A stretch of 48,187 nt of DNA from NCBI GenBank assembly GCA_015272515.1, contig JACYLN010000137.1, positions 1 to 48,187 on the forward strand, read 5' to 3'. The notes beneath the pieces were generated by a model. The model did not search any database, was not told where the DNA came from, and was given only the letters and a program-made list of their open reading frames with translations. Within the stretch, counting starts at the first letter, position 1. Every line of letters begins with the position of its first letter. The position numbers were made by a program, and so were the translations under genes. This DNA comes from Leptolyngbyaceae cyanobacterium C42_A2020_001 (GTDB taxonomy: Bacteria > Cyanobacteriota > Cyanobacteriia > Leptolyngbyales > Leptolyngbyaceae). Below are positions 6,219-39,178 of the stretch, one piece after another.

Positions 6219-7259
6219 TCATGATTTGTTATACTCTGGCACCTCTGCTTTTTTCAACTGCGCTGAATTGAATCCTGTGAGATAAAGCGTTTTAGATTGG
6301 CGTTGGCGATAAATTTCGTAAATAGCCATCCCTGTTGCAACGGATGCGTTCAGGCTCGGCGTTTTCCCAGCAAGCGCAATGGAAACCAGATGATCGCACG
6401 ATCGCTGAATCAATAAACTCAGTCCCTCCCCTTCTGCACCCACCACCAGCGCGATCGCCCCCGAAAACTCGGTCTTTTGCAGGAGTTGGTTCGCCTCAGA
6501 TGCCAGCCCGTAAATCCAGAATCCCGCGGCTTTCAACTCTTCCAGGGCACGAGTTAAGTTCACCACACGGGCAACCGCAAACGACTCCAGAGCACCTGCT
6601 GCCACCTTTGCCACTGTTGCCGTGATCCCAACCGCTCGTCGTTGCGGGATCACCAATCCCTGAGCACCCATTGCCTCCGCTGTCCGGATAATGGCTCCGA
6701 GGTTGTGGGGATCGGTGATCCCATCCGCAACAATTAAGACGGGCTGTTCTTCCGTAGCTTTGGCTTTTTCAATCACATCTGCCAGTTCATGGTACTCATA
6801 GGGCGCAACCTGAGCCGCAATCCCCTGATGGTTCGCACCATCTGTAAGTTGATCAAGCCTGCGGGGATCTACTTCATCAATCACGCTACCATGCGCTTTT
6901 GCCTCTGCCAGCAATGAATGAAAGCGAGGATCATACCGGAGGCGAGATGTAACCCAAATGCGGTTGAGGGTGCGCTGTCCTTCCAACGCCGTTTGTACAG
7001 GATGGCGACCATAGATCAATTCAGCTTCTTCCTGCGGTTCCACTGTCTCAACGACTGGGGCTTCGGGTGTGATTGCGGATTTAGGTTTTACTTTGGGAAC
7101 AGGTTTGTGATCGCGATCAACTGTGACAGGTTTAGAAAATTGTCGAGATCGGGGATGGTGTCCTGGTTTGCCGTCGCCCTTGCGCTCAGGTCGAGCTGAG
7201 CCGGAGGCGCGCTTGGGAGCACTTTTATGGAAATTGGATTTGGATTTCTTATCATTCAT
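6219..7259 (-). CDS. rlmB: 23S rRNA 2'-O-ribose methyltransferase RlmB (SpoU family)
   Basis: The enzyme methylates the ribose of a conserved G in the peptidyl-transferase region of 23S rRNA using SAM. The ordered motifs of a SpoU/TrmH knot are present: [12 protein letters not shown] (substrate-binding domain), [20 protein letters not shown] (motif 1 with N and R), [10 protein letters not shown] (motif 2) and [20 protein letters not shown] (motif 3). I prefer the start at 7259 (MNDKKSKSN, 346 aa) over the longer frame to 7364, whose extra 35 residues look like translated leader. The first about 85 residues form a basic, Pro-rich tail that may bind RNA. It lies downstream of mrnC in the same direction, a pairing also seen in Bacillus. 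Confidence 0.92.
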
Positions 7260-7367
7260 AACTTTGTGGGGAAGTTGGCAAAAGTAAAGGATAAAAGGCA
7301 CAAATGTGAAGCGCCAAGAGCGATCGATCAATTCGTGAAAACAACTCTCGTTGAATGATCCCAACCA

Positions 7368-7847
7368 TCACGTATTTTCAGTCAGCGTTAAATCCAGTGA
7401 ATCTAGCAAAGAAAACAACCGCTCTGGATCTGTTAGGTAGAGATAACCAACCAACGTCTCGAAACTCGTCGCTTGTTGATAAATTTCGGGTTCAACTCGC
7501 CGCGATCTCCCTGTGGTGGAATTTCGTCCTCGCTTGAGCCAATCTATTTCGGTTTGGGTCAATTGGGGAATTAGCGTTTGCAGATGGCGAACCTGCGCTT
7601 CTGCCCTAACTTGAGCAACTACCTGTTGGTGGTAAATTTGAATTCGTTTTGGTGGAGTGAGATAAAACCGACGAACATATAGTTCGTAAACTGCGTCTCC
7701 CAAGTAGGCAAGTGCAACTGGAGACAAACGCTGCAATTGGGCAGAGGACAGGGAATTGGGAGATATAGATAGATCTAACAAGTGCTGATCCAGCGTTGAG
7801 TCTGGAGAGCTTTCGGAGTCAGCCGGGACATCAACATTGGGGTGCAC
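7368..7847 (-). CDS. mrnC: Mini-ribonuclease 3 (23S rRNA maturation RNase)
   Basis: A 159-residue protein consisting of a single RNase III catalytic domain without a dsRNA-binding domain. The signature SPVALAYLGDAVYELYVRR holds the metal-binding Asp, and the C-terminal SFETLVGYLYL provides the second acidic motif; between them RGRNSTTGR is the family's RNA-contact segment. Mini-III trims the ends of 23S rRNA precursors. The first about 35 residues are acidic and Ser/Pro-rich, unlike the core. The following gene, rlmB, also acts on 23S rRNA, so this pair is a small ribosome-maturation operon. Confidence 0.93.
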   Translation of the reverse strand: MHPNVDVPADSESSPDSTLDQHLLDLSISPNSLSSAQLQRLSPVALAYLGDAVYELYVRRFYLTPPKRIQIYHQQVVAQVRAEAQVRHLQTLIPQLTQTEIDWLKRGRNSTTGRSRRVEPEIYQQATSFETLVGYLYLTDPERLFSLLDSLDLTLTENT

Positions 7848-30539: not shown

Positions 30540-32450
30540 ATGGTGCGACTGAAGGTGTGGCAATGGATTGTGTTAGTGCTGCCTGTTGGGGCGATCTTGA
30601 GCTTTTTGCTGGCGGCGGCGGGAGTTCAGATTCATACCTGGGGATTGAGTTGGATCTGGGCGGTGTTTACGGTGGTATTTGTGGGTTGGCGGTTCTTGCT
30701 GGTGAAGTGGACACGTCCGGTGTTGCAGCAGGTGGAGGCAGCGATCGCGGAAGTCACCGAGGAGTTAGAAGCAACTGCTGTGATGGCGCAATCTTCGGTT
30801 GGAAATTCCACGATGCAACAGGCAGAAGCAGCTTTGCAGCAGGTGCTAGATGCCGCCAAAAACGATCCTCCAGTTTGGGAAAATTGGGGCGTTTTTTGGA
30901 GTCGCTGTCAGCAACTTGTAGTGGATACTGCCCACGCTTTTCATCCAGAGGTGGAGCGTCCGTTGCTAAATATTTATGTGCCGCAAGCTTATACACTAAT
31001 CCGGGGCACGGTGGATGACCTGGATCAGTGGATGGATAAGTTGGCTCCAGTGCTGAATCAGGTAACGGTGGGGCAAGCGGTTCAGGCGTATGAAGTGTAT
31101 CAAAAGCTAGAACCTTCTGCCCGCAAGGTATGGCAAGTATGGAATTGGGCGCAGTGGGTGCTGAATCCGGCGGCAGCCGTAGCACGACAGGCAACGCAAA
31201 AATATAGCAATCAGGCAAATCAACAATTGCTGATGAATCTCAGTCAGTTATTGAAGGAAGCGGCCTTGAGAAATTTGAGTCGGCAGGCGATCGCGCTCTA
31301 CAGCGGCAAAATTCCATCATTGGAAATTCCGACATCTCCAGCCCCAGTAAAAGCACAAACCGAAACGTTGCAAGAGATTTTGGAGAAAGCAGAACCACCG
31401 GAAGCGGTGGAGCAAAAGCCTGTCAACATCCTATTAGTAGGGCGGACTGGTGCGGGTAAAAGCAGCTTGATCAATACGTTGTTTTTGACGGAAAAAGCTG
31501 AGGTCGATGTGTTACCCAGTACGGATTCGATTCGGAATTATCGTTGGCAGACGGAGAGTGGAGATGTTCTAACGCTGTGGGATTCGCCTGGCTATGAACA
31601 AGTAGACCGAGCAGAGTTTCGAGAGCAGGTATTGGAGCGGGCAACCGAGGCGGATCTGTTGTTATTGGTAACACCTGCTCTGGATCCAGCCTTGCAAATG
31701 GATGTGGATTTTCTCAAGGATGCGAAGGCAGAGGTGAGCGACTTACCCGCGATCGCGATGGTGACGCAGGTGGATAAGTTGCGTCCCATCCGTGAATGGT
31801 CGCCGCCTTACGATTGGGAATGGGGCGATCGCCCGAAGGAAATTGCGATTCGAGAAGCAACTCAATACCGCGCCAATTTGCTGGATGAGTGGTGCGAGTT
31901 TGTTTTGCCGATCGTTACCACCGATGCCAAAACGGGGCGGGCAAGCTGGAATGTGGAAGAGTTATCTCTGAGTTTGGTGGAGTCGATTGATCCAGTGAAA
32001 CAGTTGAGACTGGCACGCTTCCTGCGTAACCAGCAAGCTCGAACAGTTGCCGCTGCCAAAATCATTGATCACTACACATTTTTGATGACCACCACCCAAG
32101 GATTGGCAACTCTTCTCAAAAGTCCAGTGCTTGCCTTTCTTTCTACGCTGACGACGGGTAGCCCCACGCTTGCCTACCTCCTGGCAGAGAAACTTCCAGT
32201 TGAGCAAGCTCCGATGGTAATCGGGAAGTTGCAAATGGCTTATGAGTTATTCAACCTGTTAAATGAGGGGGAAAGCGATCGCCGCAATTTCGACTTGCTA
32301 GCGTTGTGGTCAGTTTTGCTAGAAAATCCCGCATCCCCGGATCGTAATGCTTGGGCGTTTGGTCATGCCATTACAGAATATTGGACTCAAAATCTCACAG
32401 CCGACCAATTGCGCGATCGCTTCAACTTTTACCTGGCTCAAAAGCTTTGA
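30540..32450 (+). CDS. Membrane-anchored Era-like GTPase
   Basis: A 636-residue protein. Two membrane helices at the N-terminus (WIVLVLPVGAILSFLLAAAG and WIWAVFTVVFVGWRFLL) are followed by a helical stretch (about 70-290) and a G domain: P-loop GRTGAGKSS (about 300), a switch I Thr around PSTDSIRNY, G3 as DSPG, G4 as TQVDK. The C-terminal about 170 residues are helical and include a hydrophobic segment. The architecture resembles YcjX/YfjP and DUF697-type membrane GTPases. A role in membrane or envelope dynamics is a guess. Followed by a heptamer array beginning 4 bp after the stop. Confidence 0.83.
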   Translation: MVRLKVWQWIVLVLPVGAILSFLLAAAGVQIHTWGLSWIWAVFTVVFVGWRFLLVKWTRPVLQQVEAAIAEVTEELEATAVMAQSSVGNSTMQQAEAALQQVLDAAKNDPPVWENWGVFWSRCQQLVVDTAHAFHPEVERPLLNIYVPQAYTLIRGTVDDLDQWMDKLAPVLNQVTVGQAVQAYEVYQKLEPSARKVWQVWNWAQWVLNPAAAVARQATQKYSNQANQQLLMNLSQLLKEAALRNLSRQAIALYSGKIPSLEIPTSPAPVKAQTETLQEILEKAEPPEAVEQKPVNILLVGRTGAGKSSLINTLFLTEKAEVDVLPSTDSIRNYRWQTESGDVLTLWDSPGYEQVDRAEFREQVLERATEADLLLLVTPALDPALQMDVDFLKDAKAEVSDLPAIAMVTQVDKLRPIREWSPPYDWEWGDRPKEIAIREATQYRANLLDEWCEFVLPIVTTDAKTGRASWNVEELSLSLVESIDPVKQLRLARFLRNQQARTVAAAKIIDHYTFLMTTTQGLATLLKSPVLAFLSTLTTGSPTLAYLLAEKLPVEQAPMVIGKLQMAYELFNLLNEGESDRRNFDLLALWSVLLENPASPDRNAWAFGHAITEYWTQNLTADQLRDRFNFYLAQKL

Positions 32451-32453
32451 AAC

Positions 32454-32639
32454 AGTCCTAAGTCTTAAAAAATTCTCGCGGTCTCATTAAAGTCTCAATT
32501 TTAGTCTATCTCGTAGTCTCAAAAGAGATTAAGAGAATTGAGGTCGATACTTTTTTGAAGATTGGGAACAAGGGTAGCACCCATCACTTGGTCTCAAAGT
32601 CTTATGTGGGTCTCTTTTTTAGTCCTAACACAAGTCTTA
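32454..32639 (+). promoter_or_regulatory. Array A: phased AGTCTYA-type heptamers
   Basis: Heptamers of the form RGTCYYA and near variants start at 32454, 32461, 32480, 32491, 32503, 32515, 32590, 32598, 32609, 32621 and 32633. Two groups of four share the same start-to-start spacing of 11, 12 and 12 bp, about one helical turn; the 4-5 bp between units are AT-rich and not conserved. All point the same way. The array lies between the GTPase stop and the SpoIID-domain gene (ATG 32770). A DNA-binding array is inferred; no protein is known. Confidence 0.75.
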
Positions 32640-32769
32640 AATGAGGCCGAGAGATTGATTTTTAATCGATGATCACGATAGGTCTGACATTCCCGGTCAA
32701 GATTGCTCCACGCAGTTAAAATACATTGAAGATTGATGGCTGTGAAAAATCAGAGTTCACTGGAAGCAA

Positions 32770-33810
32770 ATGAACAGGCAAGCAGTGTTTAACTGGCTAA
32801 AGCAACGTCCCTGGTTGATTGTGCCTGTGCTAGGGATAGTTCCTTTGATTGGCATTCCGTTAATTAATCAAACTTCGTCAACGCCAGAGACGGCAACCGT
32901 TTCCCCTTCTCCCTTGCTGCCTACAGCCAGTATTACCCTACCTACAATCGCCCAATCGCCTCTTTCCACACCTCAGCCGTCGCCTAAAGCCTCTCCTCAA
33001 CCAGCTCAAAAGTCTGCTCAACCTGCTCAAGTAGGCAACGTTCAAGCGGTACAATCTGCTATCAATTTGTCGGTTGATGCAGCCATTCAAATGCGAGTTC
33101 TCATTCACGAAGCGGCGAGTCGGTTGTCAGTTGGAACGTCCACAGGTGGCGCTGTATTTGATGTACAGTCAAACCGAGTGCTGTATGAGCTTCCGGCTAA
33201 TTCTAGCTATGAGATGCAAGCAGATGGAAACACTATCTTGCTAGGGGCGCTTAAACTTCCTTCCCTAATTTGGATTGACCCGTCTCCTACAGGGGTGACA
33301 TTCGTTGGCGATCGCGGCTATCGCGGACGGATTCTAGTAGCAACGAGCGAAAATCGCATTTGGGTCGTGAATTATGTGAACTTACAGCAGTATCTATATA
33401 GTGTGGTTGGCAGTGAAGTGTCTCCCAGTTGGCCCATGGAAGCATTGAAGGCACAAGCTGTTGCGGCACGTTCCTATGCCCTCACTTATCACCTCAAACC
33501 AGTCAAAAAAGATCTATACGATCTAGGCTCAGATGAGTATTACCAGGTTTACAAAGGGATTTCTACTGAGGCAAATAGCACTCGTCGAGCGGTTAATACT
33601 ACGAGTGGAGAGTTTGTTAGTTACCGAGGTGGTGTGGTGGAATCTCTCTATGCAGCAACGGATGATATCGTGATGGAGGCGTTTCAGGGTCGGGGGATGA
33701 GTCAGATCGGGGCACTGGGCTTAGCGGAACAAGGGCAAAATTACCGACAAATCTTGAGCGCTTATTATGCTGGAACGGGGATTGGTCGAATTGAGATGGA
33801 TATTGAATAA
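32770..33810 (+). CDS. SpoIID/LytB domain protein
   Basis: A 346-residue protein with an N-terminal signal anchor (WLIVPVLGIVPLIGIPLI), a Pro/Ser/Gln-rich spacer to about residue 95, then a SpoIID domain: YRGRILVATSENRIWVVNYV, YLYSVVGSEVSPSWPMEALK, AQAVAARSYALTYHL and the C-terminal QGRGMSQIGALGLAEQG. SpoIID proteins are amidase-like or lytic enzymes acting on denuded or intact peptidoglycan; cyanobacterial members are widespread and not sporulation genes. Located outside the plasma membrane. The phased heptamer array ends 130 bp upstream of its start, so it may be its regulatory target. Confidence 0.87.
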   Translation: MNRQAVFNWLKQRPWLIVPVLGIVPLIGIPLINQTSSTPETATVSPSPLLPTASITLPTIAQSPLSTPQPSPKASPQPAQKSAQPAQVGNVQAVQSAINLSVDAAIQMRVLIHEAASRLSVGTSTGGAVFDVQSNRVLYELPANSSYEMQADGNTILLGALKLPSLIWIDPSPTGVTFVGDRGYRGRILVATSENRIWVVNYVNLQQYLYSVVGSEVSPSWPMEALKAQAVAARSYALTYHLKPVKKDLYDLGSDEYYQVYKGISTEANSTRRAVNTTSGEFVSYRGGVVESLYAATDDIVMEAFQGRGMSQIGALGLAEQGQNYRQILSAYYAGTGIGRIEMDIE

Positions 33811-33830
33811 ATGTTTATCTCTGTTGAACA

Positions 33831-33873
33831 AGCAATAACCCATTCATCCTCATTAGGGGTTGCTCTTTCTTTT
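33831..33873 (+). terminator. Probable Rho-independent terminator of the SpoIID-domain gene
   Basis: AGCAATAACCC and GGGGTTGCT can pair with a small bulge around a 14-nt loop, followed by TCTTTCTTTT. It begins 21 bp after the stop codon. The T-tract is interrupted, so strength is uncertain. Confidence 0.5.
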
Positions 33874-34000
33874 GAATGGCTGCTCATCGCCTGATTTCTA
33901 CGTTTTGGCACAATCATGGCGCGATCGCGGTCTTCCTTATGAAGGGTGTCAATTCTGGGGTTGGCTTCTACCGTGAAAAGGGTAGAGATAGCGACTGATC

Positions 34001-34474
34001 ATGAATTTGAGAAAGATTTTTTACACAACGTTGGCTGGTTTTGCTGGGGTCACAGGTGTCACAATGCTAATCACTCCAGGTTTCACCCAGATTCAGTCTA
34101 CTCCCGGTAGCACCACTGCTCCTCTGGGAAGTGTGATTACCACCACTCCCAACACAACCATTGTGGTTCCTCCATCCAACTCAACCAATACAGGAGCAGG
34201 GACAACTACAACTGGAACAACCGTTACGCCTGGAATTAATGGAACTGGAACGACCGTTACCCCTGGAACGATTACTCCTGGAACAACCGTTACTCCTGGA
34301 GTGACTGGGATAACGACTCCTGCGCCTAGAACTGGTACTACCGGAACTGCCAACACGGAGACTTTTAGAACGGTTGCGCCTGGAACTACCAGCACTGGAT
34401 CTGGAAACACGGTTACGCCTGGAACCATTAATACCGGAACAAATGGTGAAGGGTTGGGTACTGGTTTGCGCTAG
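34001..34474 (+). CDS. Secreted Thr/Gly-rich low-complexity protein
   Basis: A 157-residue protein with a signal peptide (IFYTTLAGFAGVTGVTMLIT) and then almost only Thr, Gly, Pro, Val, Asn and Ser. The unit TTVTPG or close variants (NTVTPG, GTITPG) recurs at least five times between residues 70 and 150, so the DNA also repeats. Such sequences are probably disordered and may be glycosylated surface or sheath material. No enzyme motif. The antisense frame over the same stretch is only a mirror of the repeats. It is followed by the 54-bp palindrome at 34520. Confidence 0.7.
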   Translation: MNLRKIFYTTLAGFAGVTGVTMLITPGFTQIQSTPGSTTAPLGSVITTTPNTTIVVPPSNSTNTGAGTTTTGTTVTPGINGTGTTVTPGTITPGTTVTPGVTGITTPAPRTGTTGTANTETFRTVAPGTTSTGSGNTVTPGTINTGTNGEGLGTGLR

Positions 34475-34519
34475 ATGCTTCTATGTCTGCTGGTAATAGA
34501 TAATCCGATTTATCTGGTG

Positions 34520-34573
34520 CAGTGCTTACAGCAAAAAGGCGATCGCGCGATCGCCTTTTTGCTGTAAGCACTG
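34520..34573. terminator. Perfect 54-bp palindrome with HIP1 cores; bidirectional terminator-like
   Basis: The arms 34520-34546 and 34547-34573 are exact reverse complements over 27 bp with no spacer. The core is AAAAAGGCGATCGC followed by GCGATCGCCTTTTT, so a GC-rich stem is followed by a T-tract on both strands, and the pairing continues through CAGTGCTTACAGC outside it. It lies 46 bp after the stop of the Thr/Gly-rich gene. It also contains two overlapping HIP1 octamers at its centre. Confidence 0.85.
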
Positions 34574-34776
34574 TCTTATTTTCTTGATTAAGACTTTTGA
34601 TTAGACTACATCTGAGTCTAGCGCTCTTAAATAAGACTGAATTTGCATTATTTATGTTGACTGAGAAACACCGATTAAGGATGCTAAAAAATCTCAACTT
34701 CAAATCTTAGTCTTATTTTCTTAATTTAGGACTCGAACTTGGACTCACTAAAAGACTCAAGTAAGATAAAGAGACT
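34572..34776 (-). promoter_or_regulatory. Array B: phased heptamers, opposite orientation to array A
   Basis: On the plus strand these read as TRRGACT-type heptamers, the reverse complement of those in array A. Clear units start at 34589 and 34601 (12 bp), 34632, then 34727, 34739, 34751 (12 and 12 bp) and 34770 (19 bp on). A few forward copies (34572, 34615, 34709) are mixed in. The 19-12-12 spacing mirrors the start of array A. It ends about 80 bp before the dif-like repeat and recombinase start. Confidence 0.65.
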
Positions 34777-34854: not shown

Positions 34855-34884
34855 AGTTGGTGATAACGATAATTATCACCAACT
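34855..34884. promoter_or_regulatory. dif-like inverted repeat: 12-bp arms, 6-bp centre
   Basis: AGTTGGTGATAA and TTATCACCAACT are perfect inverted 12-mers around the 6-bp centre CGATAA. The inner ATAA-N6-TTAT layout is that of XerCD dif sites and tyrosine recombinase core sites. It ends one base before the ATG of the recombinase gene, leaving no room for a normal ribosome-binding site. It may be the core site or an operator of the recombinase. Confidence 0.7.
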
Positions 34885-34885
34885 C

Positions 34886-35764
34886 ATGGATCTTGCCCCC
34901 TCTTCAATCAGCTCAAACGCCACAATAGCAAGGGTTAACAGCCTTGAGCAGTTTATCGACCTGTGGCTAAAAGGCAAATCACCGAATAGTCAGCGAGCAT
35001 ACCGCAAAGACATCCAGTACTTTCTAGTGTTTCTAGGGGATAAGCCTTTAGAGCAAATGATGCTTAATGATGTCCATGATTATCTGGCAGCAATGGAAGC
35101 GCAGGGGTGGGCCGAATCAACTATTAACCGTCGGCTAGCGGTTGTAAAAAGTTTGTTGACCTTTGGTAATTCCATCGGGCTGCTTCGCGTCAATGTGGGC
35201 AAAGCTGTGAGACTGAAAGAGATGCCCAGGAATTTTTCTCAGCGAACCTTGACCGAAAGCCAGGTGCTGATGATGATTGCTATGACACCTGATCAGCGCG
35301 ATCGCACTTTACTCCGCTTTATGTATGCCGTTGGCTGTCGCGTCAGCGAGCTATGTTCTCTACGTTGGCAGAACATTACCGAAAACCCAGATGGAACCGC
35401 AACTGTTCACATCTTCGGCAAAGGCAGAAAAAACCGTTGGGTGAAATTTTCTTGCGAAACCTGGAAAGAGTTGCAAAATCTCCGCGGAGCAGCAAAGCCG
35501 GAGGATCACATTTTTGCTTCACGCCAGGGGGGGGGGCTCAAACCCAACCAGGTTAGAAACATTGTTAAAGAAGCAGGACTGAGGGTAAACGCCCCAGAGA
35601 CCTCTCCTCACTGGCTCCGACACAGCCACGCAGGACATAGCGTTCAGCGGAAAGTTCCTCTTACCTTGCTTCAAGAAACATTGGGGCACGAATCGCTCAA
35701 TACGACTCGGAACTATATCGCAGCAAATCCTAGTGATAGTAGCGCAATGCACTTATCGGTCTAA
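34886..35764 (+). CDS. XerC-like tyrosine recombinase
   Basis: A 292-residue site-specific recombinase. Residues 20-105 form the SAM-like core-binding domain (SQRAYRKDIQYFLVFLGDKP); the catalytic domain follows with the complete set R152 (GCRVSELCSLRW), K179 (FGKGRKNRWV), H242 and R245 (HWLRHSHAGH), H268 (TLGHESLNTT) and Y277 (RNYIA). No IntI-specific insertion is visible, so it is not an integron integrase. Start at the only early Met; the dif-like inverted repeat touches it. There is no excisionase or phage gene nearby. It could be the chromosome-dimer resolvase, a mobile-element recombinase, or a regulator of local DNA inversion. Confidence 0.9.
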   Translation: MDLAPSSISSNATIARVNSLEQFIDLWLKGKSPNSQRAYRKDIQYFLVFLGDKPLEQMMLNDVHDYLAAMEAQGWAESTINRRLAVVKSLLTFGNSIGLLRVNVGKAVRLKEMPRNFSQRTLTESQVLMMIAMTPDQRDRTLLRFMYAVGCRVSELCSLRWQNITENPDGTATVHIFGKGRKNRWVKFSCETWKELQNLRGAAKPEDHIFASRQGGGLKPNQVRNIVKEAGLRVNAPETSPHWLRHSHAGHSVQRKVPLTLLQETLGHESLNTTRNYIAANPSDSSAMHLSV

Positions 35765-36235: not shown

Positions 36236-36514
36236 ATGGCAACTCCTCAACCCAGTGCGATCGCAGATTTAGTTCGAGAACTGCGACAACAATTAAACCT
36301 AACTCAAGCACGGCTCGCCGCCCATCTGCGAGTCTCCACACGAACTATCAACCGTTGGGAAAATGGTCATTCAGTTCCTTCTCCAATGGCACTAAACCTA
36401 CTTGAAACGCGTTTAAAGGAGCTAAAAAACTACTCCAACGGTGAACTAGTAGAAACCAGCGAGGTTTTTGAAGAGGTGCGTACTCAGTTAAAAAATAGTC
36501 AACGAACAGCCTAA
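36236..36514 (+). CDS. XRE-family transcriptional regulator
   Basis: A 92-residue DNA-binding protein. The helix-turn-helix is LVRELRQQLNLTQARLAAHL and RVSTRTINRWENGHSVPSP (residues about 10-50), a standard XRE/Cro fold, followed by a short helical C-terminus. No ligand domain. It starts 69 bp upstream of the hybrid histidine kinase on the same strand, so they may be co-transcribed. The inverted repeat at 36040 is a candidate operator. Confidence 0.87.
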   Translation: MATPQPSAIADLVRELRQQLNLTQARLAAHLRVSTRTINRWENGHSVPSPMALNLLETRLKELKNYSNGELVETSEVFEEVRTQLKNSQRTA

Positions 36515-36583
36515 TTTTGATATTAAAAGTGATGCTCTGTATACAAATCAGCGAGAAATCTACAGGCAGGAAGAGAGGAGTTT

Positions 36584-39178
36584 GTGGTTCAGCTACCGTC
36601 GTTTGATCAGTTATTTGCTCATGGAGGGGAGACCGGACGACACCTGCGATCGCTCGATTGGTCACAAACAAGTTTGGGACCGATTGAAAACTGGTCTCCA
36701 AGTCTTAAAACTGCAATTAGCCTCTTATTAAACGCTCCTTACCCCATGCTGATTATTTGGGGAATAGATCAGATCCAATTTCATAATGATGCTTGTCATC
36801 CGTTCTTAAAAAATACTAAGAATTTACCAACCTTTGGACAACGAGCCTCCGAGTGTTGGTCAACGATATGGAAGCAAATTAATCCTCAAATCAAGTTTGT
36901 TTTAGCGACCAGTCAAGCCACCCAACAAGCTAATATTTTCTGGAGTAATGGCTGCTCAGAGGTGTTTTGTTTGAACTGGTTCCTTAGCCCAATTTTAGAA
37001 ACTACAGGAGCCGTTGGTGGTGTTTTTGTCACTATTAGTCAAAGTTCCCAATCTGATTCCCAGCTAGCAACTCATCAACCCATCGCTAATTTTTTAACCG
37101 CGCAAAGCGATCGCTCCTATCTCGGATCCCTAGATTCCAACCAATTCGTTGTAAATGACATTTTGGAACGAATCACCGATGCTTTTGTCGCGCTCGATGC
37201 TCAATGGCGGTTCACCTACGTTAATCAAGAAGCCGCTCGTTTACTACAACGTTCTCAACAAGAATTAGTTGGCAAAATCCTGTGGGAAGATGTATTTGTA
37301 GAAATTGCAGGCACTACAACGTCTAAAGAACTCCGGCGAGCAATGGCAGACCAGATGCCCTTAACCCTGGAAGAATTCTCTTCTGTGTTGAATTGCCACC
37401 TGGAAATCAATGCCTATCCATCTCCTCACGGCATCACAATTTACTTTCGCGATATTAGCGATCGCATTCGTGTAGAAGAAGCCCTGCAAGCGAGTGAAGA
37501 GCGATTTCGGTTTGCGGCTCGTGCAGTTGTGGGAATTGTGTACGACTGGAATATTGCAACCGAAGAAGTTTACCGATCTGAAGGGTTAGAGCAACTTATT
37601 GGCTTGAAACCAGAAGACGCTCCCCAACATCGGGAATGGTGGGTAGAACGCATTCATCCTGAGGATCAAATTTACCTCTATGCGATCATGGAGCAAATTC
37701 TCAATGGAGAAGCTGACCGCTACAGTTTGGAGTATCGTGTACGGCATGAAGATGGGCGTTGGGTGAATGTTTGGGATCGGGGCTATTTGATCCGAGATAA
37801 AGCCAGGAAACTCACTCGCGTTGTTGGGTTTACTGCCGACATTACCGAACGCAAACAGGCTGAAAATGAACGAGAACGACTCTTAACCCGTGAACGAGCC
37901 GCCCGCGAAGAAGCAGAAACTGCCAATCGTTTAAAGGATGAGTTTTTAGCGGTGTTGTCGCACGAGTTGCGAACACCCCTCAATCCTATCCTGGGCTGGT
38001 CTCAACTATTACAGAAGCGAAAATACGATGACAAAACCTTTATTCAAGCATTAAATACCATCGAGCGGAATGCCAAACTTCAGGTTCAACTCATTGATGA
38101 TCTTCTAGACGTATCTCGGATTCTTCAGGCAAAACTTAGCCTCACCATGACAGCGGTTGATTTAGTTTCTGTTATTCAAGCCGCAATCGAAACTGTGCGT
38201 TTAGCAGCAGAGGCAAAATCAATCAACCTGCGCCTGGAACTGGATGAGCGATTCCACCCGTCCAACTTAAAAAGTCAGCCGAAATTTTTGGTATTAGGAG
38301 ATCCTGGCCGCCTTCAGCAAGTAATGTGGAATTTGTTGTCAAACGCTGTCAAGTTTACCTCTGAAGGTGGATGGGTTGAGGTGCGACTGGAACGGGTAGA
38401 AGATAAACGAGTGGATGAGTGGATGAGTGAGCGAGTAGATGAAACCCTACCTACCCACTTCCTCCGTCACCCACCTGTCCACCCCTATGCCCAAATTACG
38501 GTTACGGACACTGGCAAAGGCATCGATCCAGAATTTTTACCCTACGTGTTTGATTACTTTCGTCAGGAAGATGGAACAACCACTCGCAAATTTGGTGGTT
38601 TAGGACTTGGACTTGCGATCGTCCGTTATTTAACCGAGATGCACGGCGGTAACGTGTTTGTTTCCAGTCCTGGAAAAGGGGAGGGTGCAACTTTTGCAGT
38701 GCGGCTTCCGCTGCTTAAAGATCAAGATAAATACAAACATCCTGTTAGCGAAGAGTGTGTGTCAGCAGTGCCAATCGATGCCCATCGCTTAAGGGGAACT
38801 CACATTCTGCTGGTAGATGATGGAGCCGATGTCCGCGAATTTTTCTCGTTTCTTATTAAGCAGGCGGGTGGAGTTGTTACGGCAGTTTCTTCCGCAAGTG
38901 AGGCGTTGGTGGTGTTGAATCATATCCAGCCTGATTTATTGATTAGTGACATAGCGATGCCGAATACGGATGGATATATGTTTATTCAGCACGTGCGATC
39001 GCAGCTTCTGGGCAATCGTCAAATTCCGGCAATTGCCCTAACTGCCTACGCTGGAGAGCAGGATAAGCAGCAAGCTTTATCCGCAGGATTCAACTTACAC
39101 TGTTCCAAGCCTGTTGAGCCTGATGAATTTATAGAAGCGATCGTCAATCTCCTTAAAACTTCCTCTTCTACCTGTTAA
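36584..39178 (+). CDS. Hybrid sensor histidine kinase (PAS-PAS-HisKA-HATPase-REC)
   Basis: An 864-residue protein with GTG start and AGGAG 4 nt upstream. An N-terminal PAS-like module (WSQTSLGPIENWSPSLKTA) is followed by PAS domains at about 185-300 and 305-425 (PAS_3-type). HisKA has H460 in LSHELRTPL; HATPase shows the N box (MWNLLSNAVKF), DTGKGID and GLGLGLAIV. A REC domain at 740-860 has D789 (ISDIAMPN), Thr/Ala and Lys (CSKPVE), so phosphorelay can occur within the chain. No membrane helix: cytoplasmic sensor, stimulus unknown. About 30 residues (604-635) inserted in the HATPase domain are encoded by STRR-like repeats. Confidence 0.92.
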   Translation: MVQLPSFDQLFAHGGETGRHLRSLDWSQTSLGPIENWSPSLKTAISLLLNAPYPMLIIWGIDQIQFHNDACHPFLKNTKNLPTFGQRASECWSTIWKQINPQIKFVLATSQATQQANIFWSNGCSEVFCLNWFLSPILETTGAVGGVFVTISQSSQSDSQLATHQPIANFLTAQSDRSYLGSLDSNQFVVNDILERITDAFVALDAQWRFTYVNQEAARLLQRSQQELVGKILWEDVFVEIAGTTTSKELRRAMADQMPLTLEEFSSVLNCHLEINAYPSPHGITIYFRDISDRIRVEEALQASEERFRFAARAVVGIVYDWNIATEEVYRSEGLEQLIGLKPEDAPQHREWWVERIHPEDQIYLYAIMEQILNGEADRYSLEYRVRHEDGRWVNVWDRGYLIRDKARKLTRVVGFTADITERKQAENERERLLTRERAAREEAETANRLKDEFLAVLSHELRTPLNPILGWSQLLQKRKYDDKTFIQALNTIERNAKLQVQLIDDLLDVSRILQAKLSLTMTAVDLVSVIQAAIETVRLAAEAKSINLRLELDERFHPSNLKSQPKFLVLGDPGRLQQVMWNLLSNAVKFTSEGGWVEVRLERVEDKRVDEWMSERVDETLPTHFLRHPPVHPYAQITVTDTGKGIDPEFLPYVFDYFRQEDGTTTRKFGGLGLGLAIVRYLTEMHGGNVFVSSPGKGEGATFAVRLPLLKDQDKYKHPVSEECVSAVPIDAHRLRGTHILLVDDGADVREFFSFLIKQAGGVVTAVSSASEALVVLNHIQPDLLISDIAMPNTDGYMFIQHVRSQLLGNRQIPAIALTAYAGEQDKQQALSAGFNLHCSKPVEPDEFIEAIVNLLKTSSSTC
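38396..38490 (+). repeat. STRR-like insertion in the histidine kinase HATPase domain
   Basis: GTGGATGAGTGGATGAGTG and GAGCGAGTAGATG are followed by CACTTCCTCCGTCACCCACC-type C-rich repeats, a pattern common between cyanobacterial genes. It is translated in frame as VDEWMSERVDE and HFLRHPPVHP and falls between the N box and the DTGKG box. Confidence 0.7.

Follow-up and report, generated by a model that had tools for sequence, protein, structure and literature searches.

Helically phased arrays of quasi-palindromic sites beside a Xer-like recombinase gene in a Leptolyngbyaceae cyanobacterium: a possible terminus element

Results

Organization of the locus

The window, i.e., the whole stretch of DNA analysed (48,187 nucleotides of contig JACYLN010000137.1 from Leptolyngbyaceae cyanobacterium C42_A2020_001), contains two arrays of short sites, array A (32454..32685, + strand) and array B (34591..34776, both strands). 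Two genes are situated between them: a SpoIID-domain gene (32770..33810, + strand; Pfam SpoIID, 6.8e-27) with orthologues in all three genomes of the genus, and a Thr/Gly-rich repeat ORF (34001..34474, + strand) with no family match. The latter is followed by a 27-bp perfect inverted repeat centred on a GCGATCGC core, the HIP1 motif (34520..34573), probably the terminator of the upstream gene. At the corresponding place, the congeneric genome G001 has another hairpin whose core is similar. Array B is followed by a second perfect inverted repeat, AGTTGGTGATAA-CGATAA-TTATCACCAACT (34855..34884), and by the gene of a Xer-like tyrosine recombinase of 292 aa (34886..35764, + strand; Pfam Phage_integrase, 2.3e-30). 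Further outward, the gene upstream of array A (30540-32450) encodes a protein that combines a dynamin-like/small GTPase domain with an extended N-terminal region, and the genes at 36236-39178 encode an HTH_3 protein and, after it, a hybrid PAS histidine kinase/response regulator. Rfam gives no RNA match anywhere in the window.

Array A exhibits 12 RGTCY sites, all on the + strand (32454-32681), with centre steps of 7, 19, 11, 12, 12, 75, 8, 11, 12, 12 and 48 bp. Nine of them are exact RGTCYYA; the eleven heptamers given in the first-pass annotation correspond to the RGTCY sites inside 32454-32639. The two groups of four described there, with start spacings of 11, 12 and 12 bp, are borne out by the positions 32480/32491/32503/32515 and 32598/32609/32621/32633. 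Array B comprises nine RGWCY sites with centre steps of 12, 12, 19, 75, 20, 12, 12 and 19 bp. As had been noted, its RGTCY sites are located mainly on the other strand (34591, 34603, 34634, 34729, 34741, 34753 and 34772) with a spacing of 12, then 12, 12 and 19 bp; two are found on the + strand (34615 and 34709). If centres are taken as RGWCY, the + site at 34615 keeps the 12-bp step of the array, and strand is of little matter.

Both arrays lie above chance in whole-window as well as in segment shuffles. Shuffled controls remain far below the window's heptamer count: when the window was dinucleotide-shuffled as a whole 200 times, no strand had more than three RGTCYYA per 187 nt, versus nine observed. 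The count of array A is matched in 0 of 2000 shuffles of the 261-bp segment around it; for array B (241-bp segment), the nine RGTCY are matched in 0 of 2000 and the four RGTCYYA in 2 of 2000. The earlier statement that the arrays are not simple tandem repeats also stands: spacers between the sites are unconserved, where a simple tandem repeat would have conserved ones, and Tandem Repeats Finder (score of at least 30) returns no row covering array A and a single 1.9-copy row in array B.

Site motif and helical phase

Concerning the repeated unit, 159 sites from 18 array segments were pooled and aligned on the pre-selected core RGTCY; around this core, T is found in 50% at two bases before and A in 67% at two bases after. 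TNAGWCTNA, a quasi-palindrome that is the same on either strand, describes the unit better. The orientation of A versus B is therefore not a meaningful feature, and the opposite orientation first ascribed to the two arrays loses its meaning.

Of the 126 adjacent steps no longer than 45 bp, 60 measure exactly 12 bp and 18 measure 19-20 bp. The step of 12 bp is the commonest in the ++, -- and -+ orientations; in +-, 12 bp (n = 6) stands against 11 bp (n = 7). Both step lengths occur in the arrays: the end of array B shows steps of 20, 12, 12 and 19 bp, a locus in another genus (G032) shows 12, 12, 20, 19, 12, 12 and 20 bp, and G001 shows 12, 19, 31, 12, 12 and 19 bp. Steps of 12 bp only would move the sites progressively around the helix, whereas 12 + 12 + 19/20 + 19/20 amounts to about 63 bp, i.e., six helix turns, and 21 site pairs 62-64 bp apart are observed versus about 4 expected from neighbours. 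Phase coherence of the pooled centres of 16 segments, which had been chosen for being dense, peaks at 10.5 bp (z 10.9) versus 12 bp (z 6.7) against a null of 300 random placements within each span.

In 1.78 Mb of cyanobacterial DNA (90 stretches from five genomes), the maximum background density is 7 RGTCY per 250 nt. The window reaches 12, its congeners G002 and G001 reach 15 and 10, and loci of other genera of the family reach 15 (G032), 12 (G035) and 9 (G040); G024 attains only 8, and the picocyanobacterial loci L122, L123 and L187 only 6.

Conservation within the genus

The gene order SpoIID - array - recombinase is common to all three genomes of the genus (the window's genome, G001 and G002), each with a dense array; motif and spacing are conserved at the orthologous loci. 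Sequence and orientation of the individual sites turn over across the genus, and their spacing persists. The nearest site group is situated 75-84 bp from the palindrome, with outward steps of 19, 12 and 12 bp in the window and G001 and of 12, 12 and 19 bp in G002. Array A is well developed in the window only; G001 and G002 possess two sites each upstream of SpoIID.

A first stricter pattern matches 1, 1 and 1 times in the three genomes, always at this locus (controls 0, 0 and 0), and a second one 1, 1 and 2 times, again only here (controls 0, 1 and 0). A looser triad pattern places 6 of 9 matches at this locus, with 3, 4 and 6 matches (13 in total) in the controls; the claim for the locus hence rests on the cluster and not on single triads. 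Arrays A and B are a real, conserved and unusual cis-element.

The recombinase and its palindrome

The best PDB matches of the recombinase are XerC-like 4a8e and XerD 1a0p, and its NCBIfam scores lie below the equivalog cut-offs for XerC (160.4 vs 335 bits), XerD (146.4 vs 329.6) and XerS (50.1 vs 267). Relatives at E<=1e-60 exist in 15 of 388 genomes, with more than 50% identity in the genus only.

In each genome of the genus, the palindrome AGTTGGTGATAA-N6-TTATCACCAACT stands immediately before the start of the recombinase gene, with exact arms and a variable centre. Of 42 genomes of the family, 13 match the palindrome if at most 3 mismatches are allowed in its inner 26 bp; exact matches are found in these three and once in G025. 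With arms of 12 bp around a centre of 6 bp, the repeat resembles Xer/dif core sites (palindromes with arms of about 11 bp and a 6-bp centre) and is a dif-like candidate; by analogy, with its place before the gene it is laid out like the core sites that adjoin the genes of XerS and XerH. Xer/dif systems have their site at the replication terminus and resolve dimers with the help of FtsK. The repeat at 34855-34884 could also be an autoregulatory operator.

Arrays in other genera and class-wide scans

Arrays of the same make are situated beside different genes in four other genera of the family (f1), namely in G032, G035, G040 and, weaker, G024. In G040, three sites form an array upstream of SpoIID, and nine sites form another at a contig end beside a gene that appears aspartate-kinase-like by eye. 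The recombinase (E<=1e-40) is absent from all four genomes, and its distribution led us to reject it as the general binder of the arrays. Among nine loci with SpoIID relatives outside the genus (L014-L022), a cluster is present in L016 only; L015 has four sites upstream. The array beside the aspartate-kinase-like gene, the second one in Leptolyngbya ULC077bin1 (L016 8909-9073 / L068 369-533), is followed by a short stretch that looks transposase-like by eye. With the stricter patterns, arrays were recognised by judgement in 7 of 42 genomes of the family, a number that reflects either low sensitivity or real absence elsewhere.

Across the class, a first pattern scan matched 29 of 388 genomes and was noisy; a second matched 93 of 388 with equally noisy controls. 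Most of the matches listed were tandem repeats by eye. Twelve candidates of the 93-genome scan were picked by eye, of which six were judged real (L182, weaker, L183, L184, L186, L187 and L188) and six not (L185 and L189-L193). Eight regions of the 29-genome scan include two real arrays (L122 and L123) and five that appear tandem-like by eye (L125 to L129); the protein at L125 (G150) has no credible relative in the genus. At L124 (G184), positions 7240-7440, eleven AGTCTCA-type sites in both orientations lie inside the 3' part of an ORF that adjoins, by eye, an integrase-like ORF; it perhaps belongs to a prophage or integrative element and was left out of the array count. Viral contigs gave at least 120 stretches matching a four-site pattern; at the 80 viral loci scanned, every match contains a pair of spacers identical at 4 or more of 7 bases, and these were rejected as tandem-like.

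The picocyanobacterial locus

In picocyanobacteria, a cluster of at least 5 RGTCY per 250 nt is located on the 3' side of one gene at 30 of 30 loci examined, these being a subset of the 64 picocyanobacterial (f2) genomes that match the gene. The arrays are modest, with 5-10 sites per 250 nt, and several (5-7 per 250 nt) fall within the background of up to 7, such that only the 12-bp steps stand out. In the flanks, 137 of 249 steps no longer than 40 bp measure exactly 12 bp, versus 1 of 17 inside the gene. Of five loci read in detail, four have the array between convergent genes (L122, L123, L187 and L188), and L186 has co-directional neighbours. In the three genomes of the window's genus and in G257, the array is located upstream of co-directional genes. 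Concerning the neighbours, pheT and metH were confirmed for L188 and L122.

The product of the array-side gene (L122 5668-6678, L188 4391-5452, L186 4261-5328) exhibits a weakly RHH-like N-terminus and a DnaJ-like C-terminus: RHH_1 scores 14.6 bits versus a cut-off of 20.5 in one of four proteins, and DnaJ exceeds its cut-off in two of four. The gene is found in the 64 f2 genomes and, as one weak match, in f23 among 388 genomes, with no match in f1; this distribution excludes its product as a universal binder. As a protein specific to picocyanobacteria, it is a candidate local binder in that family.

Position relative to the replication terminus

The contigs of G205 and G257 start at dnaN. For G205, 12 of 12 stretches from 0 to 817 kb show a negative AT skew at third codon positions and 8 of 8 stretches from 880 kb a positive one, with a near-zero value (-0.017) at 830 kb; the GC skew at third codon positions turns around 700-740 kb. 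Between these two terminus estimates is the array, 791.5 kb into the contig of 1,689 kb. The arrays of G251 (838 kb) and G234 (152 kb) equally lie within the zone of skew change, the three positions representing one ancestral picocyanobacterial locus and hence not being independent. In G257, the array is found at 802 kb of 2,411 kb, i.e., 33% from dnaN, in a zone of near-zero skew, with irregular polarity at 450-620 kb. The array-side gene was placed in 34 single-contig picocyanobacterial genomes, which are related, include 20 with rounded lengths and have a dnaN start confirmed for G205 and G257. Its distance from the contig start is 45-55% in 17 of them, compared with 3.4 expected if uniform, 13-36% in 14 and 56-66% in 3.

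Contig G187:C1 has 1,657,990 bp, the length of the MED4 genome, and contains array sites from 829,346 to 829,602. For MED4, a terminus of 826,000-832,000 is given in Table 1 of PMC10913375, and the available parts of that paper place the highest peak of vesicle DNA 'directly at the dif site', with a dif position drawn from earlier literature. In the window's genus, GC and AT skew of G001 are flat and do not locate the terminus; irregular skew is described as common in cyanobacteria in the accessible part of PMC7198777. A terminus role is supported by the array position in Prochlorococcus, with exceptions, and would apply to the window's genome by extension.

Discussion

In our judgement, the chances are evenly balanced that the arrays constitute a cyanobacterial cis-acting terminus element, joined in the window to a Xer-like module. 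Motif, phase, conservation, the dense array of the genus at this locus and the location near the terminus in several Prochlorococcus genomes are observed, whereas we infer the protein involved, the function, a location at the terminus for the window's own genome and a coupling of array and recombinase. Sites of the type TNAGWCTNA in steps of 12 and 19-20 bp would tend to share one helix face, and a putative protein may bind them cooperatively, giving an extended or looped complex that would act at the replication terminus. In the window's genus, the array adjoins what would be a single-recombinase Xer-like module, made up of the recombinase gene and the palindromic candidate core site before it, and might serve as accessory or architectural sequence for terminus resolution. 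A coupling of the array to this module in the genus is plausible. The idea of a cooperative array of some regulator, raised at first from the window alone, comes close to this, as far as a multi-site, helically phased array with motif and spacing kept at orthologous loci and beyond is concerned.

Cyanobacteria are often polyploid. In the available parts of two papers, dif prediction failed in five of five cyanobacteria tried (PMC3025954) and, by the statement of a later genome paper, cyanobacteria have no predicted dif site (PMC6416890). The phased site cluster present both in a Leptolyngbya relative and in Prochlorococcus may represent a long-missing signal for the end of the chromosome. More tentatively, at somewhat below an even chance, we suggest a class-wide terminus element in which the phased TNAGWCTNA array and a putative protein would replace the missing dif/ter signal and mark the DNA exported in Prochlorococcus vesicles; the array offers a sequence candidate for the vesicle-DNA peak. 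Among open-licence papers on cyanobacterial dif sites, the terminus, dimer resolution and AGTCT motifs, no title or abstract describes such an array. A short recognisable element that can be used as bait or deleted makes the marking and finishing of the cyanobacterial terminus testable.

In the Tus/Ter, RTP and MatP/matS systems, proteins bound at DNA sites serve to mark the terminus or to shape it. That the array is a replication fork barrier or terminus-organising element of such a kind, and not a recombination accessory, is somewhat unlikely. The many sites, the occurrence of arrays without the recombinase and the location near the terminus in Prochlorococcus (skew; accessible part of PMC10913375) agree with it, whereas the sites are quasi-palindromic without obvious polarity and form one cluster, compared with sites spread over a macrodomain. 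While the sites of the three known systems are dispersed or polar, the cyanobacterial array is one dense phased cluster, and their motifs probably differ from that of the array.

An operator function, in which a transcription factor at A and B would control the SpoIID and recombinase genes, we regard as improbable. It would account for the position of each array upstream of a co-directional gene in the window's genus, for the recombinase gene adjoining the array in three of three genomes and for the small 3-site array before SpoIID in G040. However, the location between convergent genes at four of the five picocyanobacterial loci argues against it, flanking genes differ among genera of the family, and the stricter patterns match one locus per genome of the genus, unlike a regulon of many promoters.

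The core sites cer and psi possess accessory sequences of about 200 bp, and ArgR is among the factors involved. The array could correspondingly be an accessory (arm) sequence of the neighbouring recombinase only, i.e., part of a local integrase or plasmid-like resolution module without terminus role. Array, palindrome and recombinase do occur together in three of three genomes of the genus, with 75-84 bp from array edge to palindrome, and the accessible part of PMC5357621 describes accessory elements beside the Xer core site of cer, with PepA, as well as accessory factors for cer-type Xer sites in general. This restriction to the recombinase is nevertheless decidedly improbable, as other genera and picocyanobacteria possess arrays but not this recombinase. 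The likeness to cer/psi, namely that the array also adjoins a Xer-type candidate core site, is limited: the array is chromosomal, has another motif and is also found without recombinase.

That A and B are the inverted ends of a mobile element around the SpoIID and Thr/Gly-rich genes is highly improbable and largely refuted by the orthologous loci. The idea could draw on the + strand of A, the mainly - strand of B and one 21-nt inverted pair between them (81%). However, SpoIID and recombinase are retained in G001 and G002, where only the side towards the recombinase has a dense array; the Pfam scan shows no mobility gene family in either enclosed gene, and orientation is uninformative for a quasi-palindromic site. 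The recombinase-bound element ends suggested in the first-pass annotation are likewise not supported: array A is well developed in the window only, such that the two ends fail, and this recombinase is missing from array-bearing genomes of other genera.

The recombinase and palindrome next to the array resemble the single-recombinase systems XerS-difSL and XerH-difH, in which, by the available text of PMC5357621, a single tyrosine recombinase is encoded right next to an inverted-repeat core site; the window equally combines one recombinase with an adjoining inverted-repeat candidate core site. There are differences in size and make, with about 356 aa in the Xer single-recombinase modules versus 292 aa in the window, and with a spacer of 11 bp in difSL versus 6 bp in the window palindrome. 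Furthermore, a 200-bp phased array adjoins the candidate core site of the window, whereas none is mentioned for difSL or difH in the accessible part of PMC5357621.

Concerning the array itself, its candidate core site and gene neighbours set aside, there is a resemblance to iterons and centromeres. Iteron and centromere arrays, e.g., the sites of TubR and ParR, consist of short sites clustered at steps of about 12 bp. The Pfam scan within the window found no partition family among the array neighbours. Compared with the TubR and ParR sites, the cyanobacterial array is quasi-palindromic, combines steps of 12 bp with steps of 19-20 bp and is located on the chromosome.
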